From: Leuconostoc fallax KCTC 3537
GTDB taxonomy: Bacteria; Bacillota; Bacilli; Lactobacillales; Lactobacillaceae
Assembly: GCF_000165675.1 (NCBI RefSeq)
Contig: NZ_AEIZ01000015.1
Span: forward strand, 248,001 to 312,000
Reading direction: 5' to 3'
DNA length: 64,000 bases
Shown: positions 12,331 to 61,562 of the stretch, piece by piece
Layout: the number at the start of each line of letters is the position of its first letter
How positions within the stretch are numbered: position 1 is the stretch's first letter
Made by a program: the position numbers and the translations under genes
The notes under the pieces: generated by a model
What the model was told of the DNA's origin: nothing
What the model saw: only the letters and a program-made list of their open reading frames with translations
Databases searched by the model: none

Positions 12331-13472
12331 AAATATGTTTAATATTAAAACCGGTACGTTCTTGAATAGCATCAAGCGCCTGTAGGTATCGCGCATAATA
12401 TCCATAAGGATCATCAGCACCACCTTTAGCATCCAGTACCACCACTTTATCCGTAAAGCCGTATTCTTCAATAACAGTCATGAGTTCATTATGGAATAAC
12501 TGTCGTGAATCAATATCTGCTTCTCCCATATTGCGGAAGCCATCATTAACATAAGGTGTTACAGGTGGAATAACCAAAATCAAATCAATCAGCTCTTCTT
12601 CAATTGTATTATCAAATAATGGCTTTAACTGTTTGTTCTCCGCCGCAGTAAGCCATAATTTTGCGTATACCTTAGTCACCATTGCATCAGTATCAAAAAA
12701 GTTAAACCGTTATTTGCTGGACTGTTAATTTCACGTGAATTGGCATCATATTGCCCTTGAATCAGACGAATATAATCTTTGACAATTAACTCATCATCAC
12801 TCACATTAGAGCGTTCCTGATACTCACGTGCATATTCCTCAGAAAAAGGTGAATTACTTGTCCGCGCTAAACGACGTACTAAAGTCGATTTGCCAGTAGA
12901 TGCAGACCCCATAACTGTAATTTTTTGGTAAAATGCCGGCGAAAAACACGGTTAATAAAATCCCAATTGTCAATCGGATTTTGTCGAATATCAGTAGCTG
13001 AAATTTTCAAAACCGTCCGATCCATCAAACTGACCTTAAATTGTCCATCTTGAGGTAAACGCTTTTCCAATTCTTTTTTATACGATAACTCACCTGTATA
13101 AAATGTAATTTTAGCATTTGGATTAACGATGTTACGGCGAACAACATCCACTAACTTTGCCGTCCACACATCCCAACCATCAGGCATAGGTGGCATATCA
13201 TCTTCGTTAATATAATCCACTTTAATATCTTCTTCATCCGCAAAGGCTTCACGCAAATAACGGAATCGCTTTTCTACAGATAAACCAATTTGGTAACCAC
13301 GATCGCCTGTATATCCTGACGCTACAACGAGCACACCATCATTTAAGGCAGCTGCTTTATAAATTTCAGCCTGATGGCCAACGTGCATCGGTGCTAATGT
13401 TCCAAAGAAAACACCAATCTGGTCACCTTTAAGATCATCCTTATATAAATTTCCTGCAATCATTCTTGCCAT
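12329..13472 (-). CDS. nadR: NadR: NMN adenylyltransferase / ribosylnicotinamide kinase (two frameshifts)
   Basis: Bifunctional NAD-salvage enzyme: nucleotidyltransferase domain with GVFFGTLAPMHVGHQAEIYK, then a kinase domain with P-loop GSASTGKSTLVRRLA, FSEEYAREYQERS and a closing helix pair. The gene appears in three pieces because one base is missing from the A6 run near 12920 (before the P-loop) and one from the T6 run near 12694 (before DTDAMVTKVYAKLW). Each single-base correction gives uninterrupted homology and a total of 381 residues. The ATG at 13472 was preferred to an upstream TTG. It follows pnuC, which supplies its substrate. Confidence 0.9.
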
Positions 13473-13521
13473 AAAATCGATCAACGCCCCTCATAAAATG
13501 AGTGTATGACATTGCCTCCAA

Positions 13522-34944: not shown

Positions 34945-35206
34945 TTTTTCCCCTTTGGCAATAGATATCAAGATGAGCTATATATTATAAACTAGTCCTC
35001 TTAAAACAACTAACACCGATTTAGCACTATGTGCCGAATAGGTGTATAAAAATCACTTCTTTTTAAACATTGTGAATCCCATAATTGTTTTACCTCTATA
35101 TCAATATAAGTGATCCCTATTGCTTGTGAAGACAACTATTAACGTTGCGTTCGGATTCATTTCAGACTACAATTTCTACTATTCTATCAACAAGGAGATT
35201 TGGATA

Positions 35207-36221
35207 TTGAAACAGACGAAGCACATTGCATTTAAGCATGACATATTACGTTATGCTACTATGATTGCACTCATTATGGGGGCCGCCTTATTACTATTGA
35301 ATGCCACTGGCCAGGCATCACCAGAAATGGTTGGCATGGCAATTATCTCATTCACATTTGGATTGCAACATGCTTTTGATGTCGACCACATTGCCGCCAT
35401 CGATAATATGACACGTAAAATGCTAAATGACGGAAAAATACACGCGGCGTTGGCTTTTATTTTTCCTTAGGGCACTCATTAGTTGTTATTATTATGGCGC
35501 TCATCACTGTTTTGCTTGTTGAATGGGCAAAAAATACAATGCCAATATTTGAAGCATTGGGTGGGGCAATGGGTACACTAATTGCAGCAATTATGCTAAT
35601 TTTTTAGCCGTCGTCAATTCATTCATCATTGTCAATATTTGGTTAAACTTCAAAAATTCACAGCAAGATACAACATTAACCAGAAATGATAGCACATCAA
35701 AAATCAATAAAATCTTTCTTAAACTGCTCAATCTAATCCAGCATAATTGGCAAGTTATGATTGTCGGCTTCCTATTTGGCCTAGGGTTTGATACGGCAAC
35801 GCAAATTGCAGTACTCGCTTCTTCTGCAACAGCCACAAATTCAGGCGCTGCTTGGTATGTATCTCTCTCCTTTCCGCTATTTTTCACAGCCGGTATGTGT
35901 TTTATGGATACATTAGACGGCCTCTTCATGAGTTCTACTTACAAGTGGGTCTTTTCATCCCCCTATCGAAAAGTATATTTCAATTTAACGATTACTGGTA
36001 TTTCAATTTTAGCAGCCGGTTTTATTGGGTTTGCTGATCTAATTCAAGCACTGAGTGCTTTGCTTGATTGGAACAACGGTTTAACAAGTTGGGTGCAAGC
36101 ACTTGACTTCAATCAGCTCGGCTTTATTCTCGTTGGTTTATTTGCAATAAGTTGGATTATCGCATTAATCATTTGGCATAGTCTCAAACTATCGAATAAA
36201 GATCACGGGTCTATTATTTAA
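35207..36221 (+). CDS. NiCoT-family nickel/cobalt transporter (two frameshifts)
   Basis: 338 residues after correction, about eight helices. Signature helix 2 FGLQHAFDVDHIAAIDN (HX4DH metal motif), then GFYFSLGHSLVVI, LFGLGFDTATQIAVLA and FTAGMCFMDTLDGLFM. Start TTG at 35207 is preceded by AAGGAG. Breaks: one base missing near 35452-35458 (GG or TTTT, not a long run), and one T in the T6 run near 35601-35606. It takes up Ni2+ or Co2+; no nickel enzyme such as urease is in the window. Confidence 0.85.
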
Positions 36222-37146: not shown

Positions 37147-38687
37147 TCATATTCTCATCCAAGCAAACGTTCTTTTGAATAAATTGACGGTATAACTACT
37201 ACTCAAAGTCGCTAAAATAAATATTACAGGCAAAAATTGAATCAAATAACGACTTCGACCACCTTCAAAAATTAACAAGTACACGAAAGCACCTATTATT
37301 GATAATCTCAGTACTTGAGCCAACTTATGATGATAATTAAATCCAAAAGCCATTAAACCAAGTATAAAAATCCAAATCCATTGTGCAATATATCTAAAAT
37401 CTGCCACATACTTCCCCTTAGGGTAAACTAAGTTTTTGAAGAAGCGAGATTTATCCTGTTTATCTAATTTAGATTGGATAAAATGGCCTTCAATTAGCCA
37501 GGCAAAAGTACCATCGCTCGTATTTTTATTATGTTTATGCAGTAAAAATTTTAGATAACCAAAAATACCAAGTTTAGCAAGGCGTTGCTTCAAAATATTT
37601 TCTGAATATGTCACTTTATCTTCATATGCTGAGCGTTTAGCCATTTCGATATTATCTTTAGGGTTATAGCCACCATCCCCAGAAAGGCCCATGCTAATAA
37701 AGTGAATTGGTGGCATGTTGTCACCTTTCCTAATTTGAATATAGTCCTGCTTGTTAATTTGTTGTTGCCCATAAGTTACCGTTACAAACATAGTTAGTAA
37801 CATCAAGGTAACCGCACTAATACTATAAATCAAAATTTTGAACTGCTTTAAATATAGTGCCCTTAACATACCTAACAATTCAATTAAGATAATTGCAACA
37901 ACAGGTACGATAGCCGATGGTTTGATAAAATACGTCAAAGCTACTAAAATACCACCTAATCCCATTATTAGAATAGATGACATACGTTGTTGTCGTTGTG
38001 CGATAACATAGCACAATAGATAGCTCGACACCAACGGTAGTACCCATGTGTCTGAGTATGGCACAATAATCATCGGGAAGACCAACAAAAAATGGATTGC
38101 AGATATAATGCCCAAATCACTTTTGTCCGATCGATAATACTAATAGTGATTGTATTTAATATAATGGATATATCAACCAAAATTAAAGTCACTATATCAA
38201 ATAATAACCATGAATGGTTACTAAAATATACCGCAATATGATGTTGTATTAATAACAACGGTAAATTATTAGTACTTAAACTAAAATAAGAAACCAGCTC
38301 ATCATCAGTCGTATTCGTTAATGCACTATGAATAGCACCCGGATCAAAACCAATTGCTGGATGTGTCGCAAAAACAAAGAGCAGTTGTAAACCAACAACC
38401 AACATAAAAAGAATTGGTGCCGTTATTTTACCTTTAATATAAAATATAAAGTTAAAGCAATACCTAATTCTTTTATCAATCACTATGCCAATAATTGCGC
38501 CAACAACTAACAAAATAAAAGCGATACTTAACCATGTTGTTTTTTCACCAATCACTTGACGCGCCACATTATCACCTAAAGTCAAATTAGGCGATACTAA
38601 TGCAAAATATAAGGTTAAAAACAAAAAACTAAATAGTGCTAGAATAATTTTGTTTATTAGGCTATAGGCGGTAGATTTCAGTGCCAT
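37147..38687 (-). CDS. XrtG-associated polytopic membrane glycosyltransferase (TIGR03766-like; one frameshift)
   Basis: 513 residues after correction, about 12 helices. An extracytoplasmic loop with HPAIGFDPGAIHSALTN carries acidic residues where GT-C enzymes bind metal or polyprenyl phosphate; a second soluble loop lies around GLSGDGGYNPKDNIEMAKR. One T missing from the T6 run near 38085-38090 splits it. It is the last gene of the XrtG unit, and I recall this family (TIGR03766) being defined by proximity to exosortase G. Probably transfers a sugar from a lipid carrier; unproven. Confidence 0.75.
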
Positions 38688-38706
38688 TCTGTCTCCTTAC
38701 CAATCA

Positions 38707-40409
38707 TTATTCTAATGAAATACAACATGTCCGAGTTGGTGACTCAGAAACTTCAATACGGATAAGGTGACAACTGATATCTACTAATGACTGAGATAAA
38801 CGATCAAAAACAAAATCCGTAAAGTTTTCTAATGTCGGATTAATTTCGTTAAATGGTGCGACATCGTTAAGTGTTTGATTTGAGAAAGCTGATAATTGTT
38901 GTTCAATAATCGCTTCAACAACTTCAAATTTTACTAAATCATCACCTTCTTTTACTTCGCAAATGATTTCCCAAGTATGTGGATGGACAACGCCTCTCCC
39001 ACTATCCCATTGAACAGCATGACTTGCATTGAGATAGGTTTTAAATTTATAACTACGACTCTTCATCATATTTCTTATTCCTTTTTTAAAACGATCATAA
39101 TCATGCCAAACCACTTGTTTCACTGATTTTTTTTCATCTGCAAAACTTCTAGATTGCCATTGTGCAGGGATGATAATGGTATTAATAATGCCAATAAATC
39201 GTATCATTGCACAAAGCATATTGTAAGTTGGCAATGTAAAGATAACCCACCATTTTTTCTAAAAAATCGGCTTTCTTGATCAAAATGGCGTAACAAAATA
39301 CTAATACTAATAAAATTAATTAATGAATTGAACACATATAACAAGTACATGAAAATAATGGATAACGCAATAATGAGCGGCGAATAACCAAAGAAGATTA
39401 AAACAAATAACGCAGCAATCCAAATCGTTCTTGGAAAAATGAATGTATGATCAAACATTAAGCGACCCACCATAAAGTTCTGAAAGAAATCAGTTATTCT
39501 TAGTGTGTCTTTCATAAAATGTCGTGTTACTTCGATTTCGCCACGTTGCCACCTTTGCCGCTGAACGTATAGTTCATCCAACCCTGAAATAGGTTCGACA
39601 TAAAAAATTGCATCATAACAGAGCTTAACTGCGCTACCTAAGCGTTCTCGCAGTTGAAATGTCATATCGGCATCTTCTCCAACTGTCTGCGTATTATACA
39701 AATAAGTGCCTAACAACGCTTCTCTACGAAATGCTGAAAATGCACCTGACATCGTAAACAATTCATTGCGCGCTGATTCAATATTTCGACCAGCCAGAAA
39801 GGATTGCGCATATTCATAATACTCGTTATTGCGTAATATGCTCAAGAAGATATTTTTAGTAGCATTGATATCTTCTTTTTTAGTCAGAACTGTTCCCGTT
39901 ACTGCAGCATCATGTTGATTATTTTCAAAATGCAAAACTAGATTGTATAACGCATTTTCTTCTAAAACGCCATCTGTATCCAGGTTGACAATATATTGCC
40001 CGGTACTATTATAGATGGCAGCATTCAATGCTTGTGACTTTCCCTTGTTGGTATTCATCCATTGAATACGTAAGTCAGAAAACGCTTGTTGTGCACGGCT
40101 GTATTCATCAAAACTACTGTCGGTACTATGATTATTAGCCACAATCACTTGAATTAATTGATTCGGATAAGTGGAATTATGGATTGAAGCAATACATGCA
40201 TAAAGTGTTTTTGAGGAATTATAAACAGGAAGAATCACCGAAATCATCGGCAATTTTTCAGGAACAATGATGTCTTTTTTGGTATACCCTTGTTTCATGA
40301 GTGTTAAAAAATGCCACGAAGTTGGTAAAATTTCAAACACAATTGGAATTAATAACCATGTTAACCAAAAGCCCATATTAAAAATTAAATGGTCAAATAC
40401 AATATTCAT
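38707..40409 (-). CDS. XrtG-associated GT2 glycosyltransferase fused to a PTPS-like domain (one frameshift)
   Basis: 567 residues after correction. GT2 part (TIGR03111-like): ISVILPVYNSSKTLYACIAS, LDTDGVLEEN (DXD), GEDADMTFQLRER and QRQRWQRGE (QxxRW of processive enzymes), flanked by helices. C-terminal about 150 residues (from YKFKTYLNASHAVQW, with HPHTWEIICEV) resemble 6-pyruvoyl-tetrahydropterin synthase (TIGR03112-like). One A missing from the A6 run near 39255-39260 separates them into two frames; corrected, the junction reads FFRKKWWVIFTLPTYNM. It abuts xrtG without a gap. Confidence 0.82.
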
Positions 40410-41005
40410 TTATCTGATCTCCTGCTGCAGACCACGTCCAAATTTTTGAATAATTTGGCCACGGGTAAATACTTGATAATATAATATAATCGCTAAAATA
40501 TAGAAGATAATTCGGCCAAGAATAGAGTGTGCGACGTAGAAAGCATCTGAACCGAAATAGTAAATAACAATGGCAACAAACGATAAACGAATAATATTTG
40601 CCAAAAAAATCCAAATTGTCCCAGCAACCATTAAGAGAAAACGATTTTTCAGTGTATATACAGGATAAAAAGCAATTAATGAACCAAAAGCCATTGTTTC
40701 AATAATTCCGGAACATTCATAATCAATAAATAATAAATTCATATGTTGATGATTCATGATCTCAATCAAATGTGATGCATAATGCACACTAAAAAGACCT
40801 GTTAAATACCCGACAACACTGACGCCTTTGGTTACAATAGTTGAAAATAACCATATACCATAAGGTTTACTCAATAAAGCTAAAATAATAAACAAGCCAA
40901 TACTACCAACTAAAAATAAAAAGCATGGGTTTTCGCACGTTTCAAAACAGACAATAAATATAACCAAACAATAATAATCAAAATAATGGTTGTTTTCAAA
41001 ATCAT
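40410..41005 (-). CDS. xrtG: Exosortase family protein XrtG (one frameshift near the start)
   Basis: 198 residues after correction, about seven helices. Catalytic set of exosortases: Cys in DYECSGIIETMAFGSL, Arg in FLANIIRLSFVAI and His in YVAHSILGRIIFY. The probable start is the ATG at 41005, overlapping the upstream stop (ATGA) and following GGAGCAACG. From there MILKTTIILIIIVWLYLL runs to one missing T in a T5 run near 40910-40914. The alternative frame's N-terminus (MEQRYDFENN) is not membrane-like. It is thought to cut and transfer Firmicu-CTERM proteins, one of which is encoded directly upstream. Confidence 0.88.
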
Positions 41006-41730
41006 ATCGTTGCTCCATTTTTTCGTAAGCGATACTTTTTCATTAACGGTAAGCTAATGACAGCCATCCCTAAGCCAACCATGGCAATCAGAATTGGTCC
41101 CGAAGAAGCACCAGAATAATCAGCTGAAACATTACCGTTGAAGAAAATCGTGCCACCATTACTGCCATGGAAAGTGATATTTGTTTGTGATGGTAAATCA
41201 CTGCCATATACTTCTTTAACTGTAGCCATCGGTATTTTTAGTTCCCAGCGATCATTATACTTACCGTTAGCAGCTTGACGTTCAAGGTACCCATCGCCTA
41301 CACCATTAACTGATTTATACGAATTGGCATCGTAAATATTACCGACAGAAAAATGGACCGAACTATTATCAGGGCGATAGCCTGGAAAATAAATTTGCAC
41401 GTACATGTCATGCCCGCCAATTGAAAGATAATAACTACCTGACTTAGCATCGTAATCATTCGTCGATTCCTTTGAATCCGGACTAAATAATTTAGGTGCC
41501 ATACTCATGTAAATGTAAATATTATCTTCGTCAACAAACAAGCCTACTTGACGCATATTATTGGGATAACTCGGGCTTGCCGCAAATTCTTGAACAGAAC
41601 CTACACTACCCCAATCCGAAAAATTACCATCGATATTAATACTATTGGCACTAGCAGTATGCGATACCAATACAAATCCTAAAACCAAGCCCACACCTAA
41701 CAAAATGTAGTCACAAATTACTTTTTTCAT
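41002..41730 (-). CDS. Firmicu-CTERM domain surface protein, predicted XrtG substrate
   Basis: 242 residues. Signal peptide (KKVICDYILLGVGLVLGFVL, cut after SHTASA), then INIDGNFSDWGSV, a motif common to carbohydrate-binding/DOMON-like beta-sandwich domains. The C-terminus has a helix GPILIAMVGLGMAVISLPLM followed by the basic tail KKYRLRKNGATI, matching a CTERM sorting signal. Coupled to xrtG by an ATGA overlap. Downstream glycosyltransferases suggest it is glycosylated or anchored to a glycan carrier after processing. Confidence 0.85.
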   Translation of the reverse strand: MKKVICDYILLGVGLVLGFVLVSHTASANSINIDGNFSDWGSVGSVQEFAASPSYPNNMRQVGLFVDEDNIYIYMSMAPKLFSPDSKESTNDYDAKSGSYYLSIGGHDMYVQIYFPGYRPDNSSVHFSVGNIYDANSYKSVNGVGDGYLERQAANGKYNDRWELKIPMATVKEVYGSDLPSQTNITFHGSNGGTIFFNGNVSADYSGASSGPILIAMVGLGMAVISLPLMKKYRLRKNGATI

Positions 41731-41766: not shown

Positions 41767-41792
41767 AAAAAGACGAGCCTTGGTAGCCCGTC
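41767..41792 (-). terminator. Terminator upstream of the Firmicu-CTERM/xrtG unit
   Basis: 8-bp stem 41771-41778 / 41785-41792 with one G-U and a T-run on the minus strand, overlapping the stop of the membrane-protein gene. It separates that gene from the xrtG unit. Confidence 0.65.
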
Positions 41793-43563
41793 TACTTTTC
41801 TTTTACCATTATTATTTGTAAGCTTCGCGCAAGGACTAATAACCAAGCTAAGGCAGTAAGTATGCTGACCATCTTAAAAATATAACTCGGCTGATAGCCA
41901 ATTTCAAAAATATTGGCACCTTTCTGCTGCTTTACCTCAACTGCACCAATGATATTGGCCTTTAATCCTCGACTAGATATGCGTTTATGATTAAACGTCG
42001 TCACACTATGCGTATATTTATAAACTGGTAGAATAACATTTCTCACTTGATTACCTTGCCAGGATAATACCAAATGCTGTTGCTGGTTAACTGATTTATT
42101 GACCTTAATATTGTTTAAGAATGTTGCTTTAATATTTGCACGATATGGTTTGAAACTATTTTTTGCCATAAATTACCTTGTTGCTGAATCGGTAAATAAT
42201 CTGGTGTGCCCTTTTGAAGAATCGTAAATGGTTTTCCAAGATTTTTATCTTTAAAAGCAGCTCGAATAACGTCAGGATTTTTATCTTTATATATAATCTT
42301 ATTACGGTAGGTTAGAACGTTATCCGACAACCACTTTTGGCTAATTGTTACCTTCTTTTGAAGGTTGAATGTCGTTAATAAAACCACAATCAGTACCATG
42401 ACCGTTGTTAAATGGCTTATTTTTTGACCAAAGTTACTACTCAAAGTCAGACTTACTGCCAATAATAATAGAACGTTCGATAATATAACAAGCCTAAAGG
42501 GAAATTGCAAAAAGGAATACAAAACGGGTAAGTGCTTGCCAATTGTATTCCATGGCATTATATCACTGGATAACAATAAAAAAGTAGCACCAACGTAAGT
42601 TAAAACACGATTAGTAAATGATATGAAAGATGCCCGTTTGAATACTAATAACAATTGTATCGCAAATAAACAAGAAGAAATAAGGCCTAAAGTACCAAAA
42701 CTATCATGGCCCCAACTAAAACTCGTTGCGACAGCCTGTAAATCATACTGTGGATATGGCTTTAGTAAATTATCGGATCCATAAATATCCAACATACCAC
42801 CCCAGATATTACCGGTTAAGATAATCGTTAAACCCACTGCTAAACAACCATCACGCACGAAAGCAACCTTATGTCGCGTTGTAAAAAGCCCCACTAAAGC
42901 AAATGGTATTAACACTAGTACCGAAAATAAGGCGCTCAACATATGAGTTTGTATCATAATGGCCATAACAATAGCTAAGGCACCGTAATGAATTTTAGCA
43001 TCTTGGCGTTTTAACATTGGCAACGCCTGCATAATGACATACGGTATTAAGACCGCGCCCCATGCGCTAAATTTCTGTGAATCACTCCATGCCGTTACCC
43101 AATAGCTGTTCATATAAACAATCGCCATTAACGTTGCAACATTATTCTTCGCACCGGCGTATTTGGATAACTTATAAAAGCCAAAACCAGCTACAAAATT
43201 GAGTAAAATATTTGTAATGATTTGGTACTTAAACCAGCTATTAACAAGTGCAAGCACCGCACCATTCAAGTAAGCAACCACAGGACCATATAAAGCATTT
43301 ACAATTCGGCCGCTTTGATTAAAACCATATAAACTCATGAAATAGCTAAAGTGCCCAGTTTTTATTTGCATCGCCGTGTCATAGAAGCGATTAAAATGAA
43401 ATATCGAATCCGCACCCAAAATAATAGCATGAAAATAAATTTGTGGCACAATCAACAAAATACTAAACAACAAAATGATCAGAACTGATTGTATCTTATG
43501 TTGTTGAATGGACTTGGTTAGCCTTCTCAAGATACACCTCCTGATGTCTCCATTGAAATTCAT
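41792..43563 (-). CDS. PTPS_related-type (YfhO-like) membrane protein A (one frameshift)
   Basis: 590 residues after correction, about 11 helices and a C-terminal extracytoplasmic domain followed by one helix. The first loop holds GADSIFHFNRFYDTAMQIK, an acidic GT-C-like motif. Paralogue of the gene at 43938-45721 over its whole length (e.g. SGRIVNALYGP, QTHMLSA, KPFTILQKGTPDYLP), but clearly diverged in sequence. One A missing from the A6 run near 42160-42165 splits it; corrected, it reads NLWQKNSFKPYRANIKATF. Likely a membrane glycosyltransferase; substrate unknown. Confidence 0.72.
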
Positions 43564-43589
43564 ATTAAGCAGCTGATATTCAATATATC

Positions 43590-43895
43590 TTAGCCTAATT
43601 TATTATCGCGTAAAATGCGGTCCATTTCCTTTTGCATTTCAGGTGTCTTAACCCATTCTTCCCAACCATCATATTCTAATGGTAATGCCTCGTAATGCTC
43701 ATTAATGTACTTTTCCACAGCCAATACATGCTGTGTTCGCGGAATATTCACTTTCAGTATTCGAACTTCTTTAATGTAGCCGTGATCTGCTGCATATTCT
43801 GCTCGACCATTGTGAGGAATACTCCCAAGTTCATAATACTTCGTACCATCTAAGCGCGTTATTTCTTCTATTAAGTTGAATGTTTGATTGCCCAT
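43590..43895 (-). CDS. Small soluble protein of unknown function
   Basis: 101 residues, acidic, no signal peptide or membrane helix, intact. Sequence features: FNLIEEITRLDGTKYYELGS, AVEKYINEHYEALPLEYDG and a C-terminal WEEWVKTPEMQKEMDRIL helix. No family recognised. It lies between two paralogous membrane proteins, 26 bp from the following one, so it probably belongs to the same unit, as a cytoplasmic partner or by insertion of the duplicated gene around it. Confidence 0.7.
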   Translation of the reverse strand: MGNQTFNLIEEITRLDGTKYYELGSIPHNGRAEYAADHGYIKEVRILKVNIPRTQHVLAVEKYINEHYEALPLEYDGWEEWVKTPEMQKEMDRILRDNKLG

Positions 43896-43937
43896 TTTAT
43901 TTATCTACTAGTACTCCTACATTAAATATTAATCATT

Positions 43938-45721
43938 TCATTTTAACACCATATTTTTAGTTAATAAAAATCGAATATGATTAAATAGCTTTATAGCACC
44001 AAATCCTATTAAAATGAACCAACTGATGACCGTCAATCCACTCATATAACGGAATGCACGACTAGGCCGGTAATCTATCTTAAAAGTATTTTTGCCTTTT
44101 ACCTGTTTAACTCTAACGGCACCTACCACTGTTGTTTGAACCTTTGAATTATCAAGCGCCTGATGATTCAAAGACATTTTACTATCAGCATATTTATAAA
44201 CAGGCAATGTAACAACTTTTTTGCTATTACCCTGCCATTTTAATATTAATTGATTATGGCTATCAATTGATTTTGTTACCTTTAGGGGGTTAAAAAATGT
44301 TGCCTTAATATTTTCATTATAGGGATGGAAATTATTATCATCCCATAATTTACTATCTTTATGAGCTGGTAAATAATCAGGTGTACTTTTTTGTAAAATC
44401 GTAAAGGGTTTCCCTAAATTATCGTCTCTAAATGCAGATCTGATAACTGCAGGATCAGTTTTCTTAAAGTTAATATTTATCCTATTCGATAATACATAAT
44501 CTCCATTCCAACTTTTACTGATTCCTGATAAACCTTGAAAATTTAAAGTAAAAAATACTATAGACAATACACTCACAATAGCAATTGGAAGATTAACTGT
44601 TTGAAAATTTTTAACCAGTTCTATCTGAGATAACGTCAAACTAATTGACAATAGAAGCAATATGTTCGAAATAACAACCAATCTAAAAGGAAATTGTAAA
44701 AACGAATCAAGCGCTGGAATGCTATCACCAATAATATTCCAAGGTATAAGACTACTAGAGATTATTAAAAATAATGTACCGATTATGGTAATTAACTTGT
44801 TTTCAAAAGAAATTAGAGATGTTTTTTGAAGAACAAGTACAATTTGAGTAATGAATAAAAATGATGATAAGATACCCAATTTACCAAATGAATCACCACC
44901 ATCCAGTGATAGATTAGTTGATAATGACAATAAATCTGTTTGAGGATGAGGTTGAATTAATTTATTATTACTTGAAACGTCTAAAAATCCCATCCAAACA
45001 TTTCCGGTTAAACATAATGTGAGCAATACGGATGCCACACCATTACGCATAAACAAATATTTTTCAGACGTTAAATAAAACCCTACTAACGCAAATGGTA
45101 TCAATAAGCAAACAGCAAATACAGCACTTAACATATGCGTCTGAATGACTATTGCCATAACAATAGCTAAAGCTAGTATATTAATTTTGGGTTGTCGTTT
45201 ACTAATCATGCCCACGGCTTGCATAGCCACGTATGGCATTAAAGATGCCCCAAACGAAGTAAATTGTTGCGAATGACTCCAACTTGTAATCCAGTATGTG
45301 TTCATATACAAAAAAGCTATTCCAATAGCAATTTCATTATGACTACCTAATTTTCGAGCGAGCTTATAAAAGCCAATACCAGATACAATATTAATCAAAA
45401 TCCCAGATAATACTTGGTACTTAAACCAACTTCCAGATATTAACAATAGTAGTCCATTCAAGTATGCAAACATAGGACCATATAATGCATTTACAATACG
45501 CCCACTTTGATTAAAACCAAATAAACTCATAAAGTAGCTATAGTGTCCTGTTTTAATTTGCATAGCTGTATCATAAAAGCGATTAAAATGAAAAATTGAA
45601 TCGGCACCAAAAATAACTGATTGATCATATATTTGTGGTAACATCATCATAATACTCAATAAGATGATAATTGAAATTGACTTTAAGTTTGACTTTTTAA
45701 AAAATGAATATACATTTTCAC
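43938..45721 (-). CDS. PTPS_related-type (YfhO-like) membrane protein B (one frameshift)
   Basis: 594 residues after correction, same topology as its neighbour: about 11 helices, the loop motif GADSIFHFNRFYDTAMQIK identical, and a C-terminal soluble domain (NENIKATFFNPLKVTKS) plus one helix. Start: GTG at 45721, 8 bases after GGGGAG (ATG at 45715 is the alternative). One T missing from the T6 run near 45699-45704 hides the N-terminus; corrected it reads KMYIHFFKKSNLKS. Product of a tandem duplication with protein A. Confidence 0.72.
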
Positions 45722-59811: not shown

Positions 59812-61562
59812 TTATGCATCACCTATTACTTTTTCTATTAATGTTTGATCAATCTTTGTCAATTCTTGTTGCCATAACTCCCAAGTATTATGATGCCAAA
59901 CGCGTTGATAGCCAATATTTAATAACCACTCACTGCGTTTTGTATTAGCACGCATCAATACCTGATCAGCCAACATCATAATGGCCTTCTGATGGGTAGA
60001 CGCATTCGTCTGACCTATTACCAGTATATCAAAATGAGCATTACCAACAATACGTTGGCCCTTAATTTTTGCTTGTTCAGGGGATAAGGTGTTATCTTGC
60101 GGTGATTTATTAACAAAGATACGACTATTCGGCATGACTTGATCAACATGTGTAAAGAACTGATAGCCATACCAATTATCCAACAAATGTCGCTCATAGA
60201 TGACAAAACTTTGATCCACATTTTGAGGTATTCTTGCCACTATGCCATCATCAAACTGAGATTCTGAAAAATCTTCACCATTAATAAGCATGCGTATTGT
60301 CTTAACGGGTTGTATTGCTGGTTGCTTTTGAATGACTGTCGCCACCCGTTCAGTAGCCAAGCCATCATCGTTCGCCACATATCGTTGATAAAAATTTTGA
60401 TATTGAACACTGAATTTTATTTGAATATCAGATAGATGGTGTATCCAATCTACAATATTTTCTACCTGCCGTGTATATGGTCCTGGAAGTTGATTATCAG
60501 CTAAATACGTTCCTCTTGATGTCTGATAATCTGCATTCTGATCCAAGAATAGAATCGGGCGTTGCGTAATCAAATAATCAAAAAATAATGATGAATAATC
60601 CGTAATTAAAATGTCTGTGATAGCCAATACATCGTTGGTATCTAAATAATTCGGTACTAAATATGAGGCAAATGCTTCATCTCTTTCAACTAATTGATAC
60701 ACATAAGGATGCGCCTTAAAACGAATATCATATTGCGGTAATTGCTGCTGTAATTGTTTTAGCACAACTAAATATTTTTGTATTTCTTCATAACTAGATG
60801 TTAAAGTTGTCGCATCTCCGCTCCAAGTTGGTGCATAAAGGATAACCTTTTGTTGGCTATGTACTAATGCTCTAACCTTTTTTTCAAGCATTGGCTTGAG
60901 GCCATTAACTAAGACATCATTTCTCGGATAACCAACATTTAATAGTTGCCCGCGATATAAATTATCTAGACGATAATCCCGACGAAAAATAGTTGTCGTA
61001 TAAGCATTAGGCATAACTAAGTAATCTGTCATCATCAGATTTCTCAATACATTCCAAGACCCCATTACGCCACCAGGCATCGCATATCCCATTTTTTCAA
61101 TGGCGTGCCATGCCAAGTGTTAATAAAAATCTGGTCTGATCGTTTAACAAAGATATCAGAAAAAATCATTGCATTTGTCACAACATACTTTGCTGTTAAT
61201 AAGGCATGCATATGTTCATCAGAAAACTGTATCACCACATGAATCTGTGACCTATCAGATAAAGTTAAATACGCTAAGGTTGCTTGTATTTCTGTTAAAT
61301 ATTGGGATTCTGCCACAATAATGTGTTGCATTTTTGGTTTATTATTTAACCAATGCAATAAGATAGCACGGGGCGAATCACTCAATTGTTGCCCATCACG
61401 CATATCATACAAAGCCACGTTTTCATCCAATGGCCACTCATCATAATGATTATCGTAGTATTGCTTCGCTTTATTTTCAGGTGATTGCAAGGCTAACTTA
61501 TTCTGTCGTTGCCACTGCCAATCCCGCCATTTATAGATTGTTTGTTTAATTAATTTTTGCAT
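59812..61562 (-). CDS. TagF-like CDP-glycerol glycerophosphotransferase (one frameshift)
   Basis: 583 residues after correction. INTWHGTPLKKMGYAMPGGV holds the essential HGT motif; NVGYPRNDVLV, LYAPTWSGDATTL, RFKAHPYVYQL and ILITDYSSLFFDYLI complete the family set. One A missing from the A6 run near 61093-61098 splits it exactly inside HGTPLKKMG. The C-terminal about 150 residues (INGEDFSESQFDDGIVARIP onward) are extra and unassigned. It polymerises or primes poly(glycerol phosphate); tagD, which makes its CDP-glycerol donor, lies just upstream. Confidence 0.88.

Follow-up and report, generated by a model that had tools for sequence, protein, structure and literature searches.

Five-part exosortase G unit of Leuconostoc fallax, with a substrate that may work beside a proposed envelope glycan machine

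A five-part exosortase G (XrtG) unit lies at positions 37147-41730 of the window, the whole 64,000-nucleotide stretch of Leuconostoc fallax KCTC 3537 DNA analysed here, with all genes on the minus strand. It belongs to the recognised XrtG kind and consists of a Firmicu-CTERM substrate, XrtG, a PgaC-like GT2 glycosyltransferase, a PTPS-like protein and a TIGR03766 membrane glycosyltransferase. The substrate and XrtG seem to work together as a resident machine that assembles glycan. In our main reading, which we give a probability of about 0.5, the unit would be a five-part envelope glycan machine, in which XrtG cuts the substrate tail and transfers the protein, and the substrate works beside the machine. 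New in this study are the PTPS-like protein as fifth part, the predicted GT-C fold of TIGR03766, the fusion of PTPS to PF10131, and the fusion of the substrate domain to XrtG with loss of the catalytic Cys. XrtG was named from comparative genomics, and the enzyme and its associated families were already known from NCBI models and from the copy in Lactiplantibacillus (L.) plantarum (PMC12854382). No study of XrtG activity, acceptor, product or other function was found in the open-access literature that we searched.

The features of the unit are listed below, with scores set against the curated NCBIfam cut-offs.

41771..41793, minus strand: terminator-like hairpin that separates the unit from the membrane gene upstream, predicted by consensus scan
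41002..41730, minus strand: Firmicu-CTERM substrate, 242 aa; TIGR04145, 146.7 bits (cut-off 50)
41095..41112, minus strand: GASSGP sorting motif; a hydrophobic helix (41041-41094) and a basic tail come after it
41002..41005, minus strand: ATGA in which the substrate stop codon and the XrtG start codon overlap, read from the sequence, with translation from 41005
40410..41018, minus strand: XrtG exosortase, N-terminus out of frame; TIGR03110, 184.9 bits (cut-off 102.75)
40713-40715 (Cys), 40587-40589 (Arg) and 40527-40529 (His), minus strand: XrtG catalytic residues
39204..40409, minus strand: PgaC/IcaA-like GT2; TIGR03111, 523.5 bits (cut-off 363.95); QRQRW at 39549-39563
38707..39072, minus strand: PTPS-like zinc-binding protein; TIGR03112, 126.7 bits (cut-off 69.35)
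37147..38687, minus strand: TIGR03766 membrane glycosyltransferase, predicted GT-C type, in two ORFs (38070-38687 and 37147-38115); cut-off 500 bits

When the models named in the preliminary description were run, TIGR03110, TIGR03111, TIGR03112 and TIGR04145 matched over their cut-offs, and TIGR03766 matched in two pieces (model positions 2-192 at 218.5 bits and 190-495 at 432.8 bits), each alone below the cut-off. The compact order from substrate through XrtG, GT2 and PTPS to the membrane glycosyltransferase agrees with the coordinates and with the same order in relatives, and the proposed ATGA coupling of substrate and XrtG is seen in both sequence and reading frame. The genes afterwards had been described as abutting. 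This holds for XrtG and GT2, where a TAA is followed by an ATG at 40409; the membrane glycosyltransferase is preceded by a 19-nt gap. One correction concerns the "GT2/PTPS-like" item: in relatives the PTPS-like protein has a gene of its own, which in 45 of 58 loci is the next one after GT2. The earlier reading of the unit as a whole is partly supported, in its families, order, translational coupling, single substrate and two glycosyltransferase calls, with cutting, joining or glycosylation of the protein itself still putative. The recurrence of these genes in this order in dozens of genomes places the unit far beyond chance.

On the upstream side, the terminator-like hairpin would set the unit apart from its neighbours. 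These are two paralogous multi-TM proteins on the minus strand (41792-43563, frame-broken, and 43938-45659), without a Pfam or NCBIfam match and with only a weak profile match (hhalign probability 27) to PF10131, a GT-C-clan membrane family (PMC7801869). The upstream membrane proteins at 41792-45659 were rejected as members of the unit because Lactobacillaceae loci hold no such protein and the terminator-like hairpin lies between. PF10131-like proteins are likewise lacking from the Lactobacillaceae XrtG loci.

The substrate has an N-terminal signal helix, a CBM9-like beta-sandwich (about residues 31-206) and a sorting tail. The tail is tripartite, with GASSGP, a helix (residues 211-239 in the model) and the basic end MKKYRLRK; in relatives the motif is mostly GGSTGP, again with a hydrophobic helix and then basic residues behind it. 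In the AlphaFold2 model (mean pLDDT 80.7), the best Foldseek match in the PDB was a CBM9, at a modest E of 4.5e-3 (prob 0.98). Z scores were 8-9 against CBM9-type folds and about 6 against immunoglobulin-type sandwiches. The domain had no Pfam match, and its profile found no meaningful relative among PDB sequences. We call it CBM9-like by predicted fold, on a modest match; such a fold by itself leaves sugar binding unproven. Long substrates carry two copies of the domain, and tandem domains occur in many. A single dedicated substrate had been proposed, in agreement with the window genome (completeness 91%), which holds exactly one XrtG match and exactly one TIGR04145 match. Elsewhere, an extra 217-aa Firmicu-CTERM protein was seen in three genomes (G127, G194, G244; L106 11181-11831, L107 4235-4885, L108 5506-6156), at a distance from XrtG and 4-5 kb from a gene of the TIGR03766 type; one of the three, G244, lacks an XrtG match.

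In XrtG, the catalytic Cys, Arg and His are present in the window copy and invariant in 58 homologues. One XrtG gene (G233, L089 9292-10494) carries near its 5' end an interrupting ORF of 401 aa, seemingly an IS256-type transposase by sequence.

The presence of two glycosyltransferases was also borne out. The GT2 is PgaC/IcaA-like, and its QRQRW corresponds to a QRxRW motif conserved among homologues. For TIGR03766, which keeps a conserved Asp at 38343-38345, the model of an intact relative (L035, pLDDT 91.6) matched ArnT with a Z of 21.8 over 310 aligned residues (rmsd 3.6). Nearly all strong structural matches were GT-C enzymes, and the next ones below drop to Z 4.2. By this model, TIGR03766 has an ArnT-like GT-C fold. 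By sequence, the TIGR03766 profile had no detectable similarity to PDB chains. A sequence link between TIGR03766 and PF10131 was considered and dropped (hhalign probability 0.3); the two share a fold class only. One genome (G265, L088) has substrate, XrtG, GT2 and PTPS and no TIGR03766 protein (best 69 bits), which suggests that this enzyme is dispensable in some species.

The PTPS-like protein is a real fifth part of the unit. In the window, its start is probably in NMM at 39052-39072, and its zinc histidines lie at 39019-39021 and in HPH at 38977-38985. The three zinc histidines of QueD are kept in 66 of 66 XrtG-associated PTPS-like proteins, and the catalytic Cys27, Asp70 and His71 are replaced in all 66, columns being mapped on an E. 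coli QueD sequence whose stretch 27-109 equals the PDB alignment except at position 27 (Ala there). Because the catalytic Cys and the Asp-His pair are absent, we do not class the protein as a pterin enzyme. At two loci, two divergent PTPS-like proteins flank the unit (L115 6914-7315 and 10607-11707; L038 5118-5591 and 10787-11245), one before the substrate and one before the PF10131 gene.

Substrate, XrtG and PTPS share one distribution among 301 Lactobacillaceae genomes, of which 58 have XrtG and 243 do not. Firmicu-CTERM scored over the cut-off in 57 of the 58 (the last reached 47.7 bits) and in one genome without XrtG. Of the 58, 53 had a PTPS-like protein over the cut-off, two had a frame-broken one and three had none. 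Among the 243 genomes lacking XrtG it was found in one (G018), where the contig ends inside GT2, so that XrtG may merely be missing from the assembly. Five genomes with XrtG (G014, G150, G200, G242 and G257) keep PTPS away from the XrtG locus, which we count in favour of the machine reading. Counted by locus, a different set from the genomes because repeats or second copies come in with G014, G052 and the named loci, the substrate lies at most 1.7 kb upstream in 58 of 58, GT2 is adjacent in 57, a TIGR03766-type protein is present in 55 and PTPS in 50.

In several Bacillota families outside Lactobacillaceae, the same machine is rearranged. There, PTPS is usually fused to PF10131, and at three loci (L116, L122, L123) one protein of 1289-1313 aa joins PTPS and PF10131 to the substrate domain and a sorting-like tail. 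A clade with members in three families (f23, f68, f76) has the CBM9-like substrate domain fused to the N-terminus of XrtG; one such fused protein (L118) is 401 aa long. At the junction, the unfused GDIQWSPIPI followed by a helix and basic residues is replaced by a sequence such as GDIQWAPFPV or GDIQWSPFPV, after which come a short linker of basic residues and the initial helix of XrtG. The catalytic Cys is replaced by Asn or Ser in 10 of 10 fused proteins and is Cys in all 71 unfused ones compared. Among XrtG columns at least 93% conserved in the unfused proteins, only the Cys column is changed in every fused one; a Phe close to the C-terminal end differs as well in most of them. The Arg and His remain, the His lying beyond the contig end in one case. 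The clade retains all other parts of the unit, and its fused XrtG is under purifying selection (dN/dS about 0.1). Fused and unfused states occur within one genus (G721 and G609), and the tree requires a single fusion and a single loss of the Cys, both on one branch (support 93/93 for the single origin). The association therefore rests on a single evolutionary case, if a well-preserved one, which limits the argument. Since one fused locus (G315) lies on a single-contig genome of 2.9 Mb, an assembly error is unlikely; the f68 copy (L117), on a 3-kb contig, could be contamination. No report of a fused, Cys-less XrtG was found in the open-access literature, the extent of our search.

From these features we infer how the machine might operate. 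The processive-type GT2 would act at the cytoplasmic face, and the ArnT-like GT-C enzyme at the outer face, partnered by a zinc-binding PTPS-like protein stripped of pterin chemistry. The single secreted CBM9-like protein would be kept at the outer face by its C-terminal sorting tail. XrtG would recognise this tail and, in the Cys-bearing lineages, including that of the window, cut it at GGSTGP or GASSGP. It may then hand the protein over to an acceptor, lipid or glycan, that the glycosyltransferases have made, with the product staying at the machine. The substrate would have its role there, probably in binding the nascent glycan, and would not be cargo for elsewhere. Since one lineage has the substrate domain joined to XrtG and another has it joined to a PTPS/GT-C protein, the parts probably act together in one place. 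Furthermore, loss of only the thiol once there is no tail to cut suggests a role for the Cys in cutting the tail and some other use for the remainder of XrtG. Persistence of the Cys-less clade with all other parts speaks against cut-and-join being the system's invariable core. We see about an even chance that all of this holds jointly: a resident complex of XrtG and substrate, the fusion as its permanent tether in one Bacillota clade, a discarded Cys with the thiol-free exosortase fold maintained under purifying selection, and the zinc-only PTPS-like protein as a dedicated non-pterin partner of the GT-C enzyme.

The Firmicu-CTERM protein could instead be an exported, adhesin-like surface protein that XrtG only anchors, the glycosyltransferases building its anchor of lipid or glycan or decorating the protein. 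A tripartite tail together with a Cys-bearing XrtG is what other exosortase systems have, many substrates carry tandem domains, and self-aggregating L. plantarum strains show raised transcripts of the system (PMC12854382). However, one substrate adjoins the enzyme in nearly all genomes, and its domain occurs joined to XrtG or the PTPS/GT-C protein, both of which fit a resident part better. The Cys-less clade, too, favours a substrate working beside the machine over exported cargo, and we regard the anchoring of cargo as a possible but clearly weaker explanation. It is less likely still that XrtG is mainly a maturation or quality-control protease, whose cut would free the CBM9-like protein from its helix for glycan binding, with no transfer to an acceptor. 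Loss of the Cys coincides exactly with the absence of a tail to cut, and for other exosortase-like enzymes, too, only cleavage needs explaining. Yet the distant relative archaeosortase A is thought to transfer to lipid (PMC7157517), and the dedicated glycosyltransferases beside XrtG suggest an acceptor.

A further alternative concerns the strain itself: the locus could be decaying, and the unit no longer functional there. Three or four frame breaks within 4.6 kb would fit such a decay. They lie at A/T homopolymers in XrtG (near 40910-40925), GT2 (near 39204-39270) and TIGR03766 (near 38080-38095), and about 50 C-terminal residues of GT2 are in another frame, with model positions 389-436 matched in the next ORF. 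GT2 and PTPS, separate genes in relatives, run in one open frame in the window, which is either a fourth break or a fusion. Translated from the ATGA, XrtG reads MILKTTIILIIIVWLYLLSVLKRAKTHAFYF and then a stop; this piece resembles the N-terminus of intact relatives (e.g. L035), and the true start is probably at 41005. Against decay, the breaks are at short homopolymers, every piece keeps intact catalytic motifs, and the 91% completeness fits poor sequence. Moreover, homologues of NadR (12676-13484), NicT (35120-36221) and TarF (59812-61562) in the window are each split over two ORFs, which makes a genome-wide sequence error likelier than decay of this locus. An assembly rich in homopolymer errors is the simplest reading, and we consider decay very improbable.

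Should the fused protein prove functional without its Cys, an exosortase would not have to be a protease. The comparison also gives a reason to seek the substrate in complex with the glycosyltransferases, and not in the cell-wall fraction alone, and yields sharp tests in food lactobacilli and further non-pathogenic bacteria.

Among known systems, the closest is LP_RS09090-LP_RS09075 of L. plantarum (PMC12854382), with the XrtG and Firmicu-CTERM families in the same order. Its transcripts are more abundant in aggregating, interferon-inducing strains (PMC12854382). The window differs in that its substrate has a single copy of the domain, against two in L. plantarum, and in that PTPS lies inside the unit. 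Archaeosortase A with PGF-CTERM in Haloferax shares with XrtG the superfamily (TIGR04178 match), the Cys, Arg and His, and the motif-helix-basic tail. It differs in its motif, and the XrtG system has a single dedicated substrate and dedicated glycosyltransferases; for XrtG, lipid transfer is putative. The predicted fold of TIGR03766 is like that of ArnT and other GT-C enzymes, whereas its sequence resembles no PDB chain. With QueD and other PTPS proteins, the PTPS-like part shares the fold family and the three zinc histidines, and differs at Cys27, Asp70 and His71.
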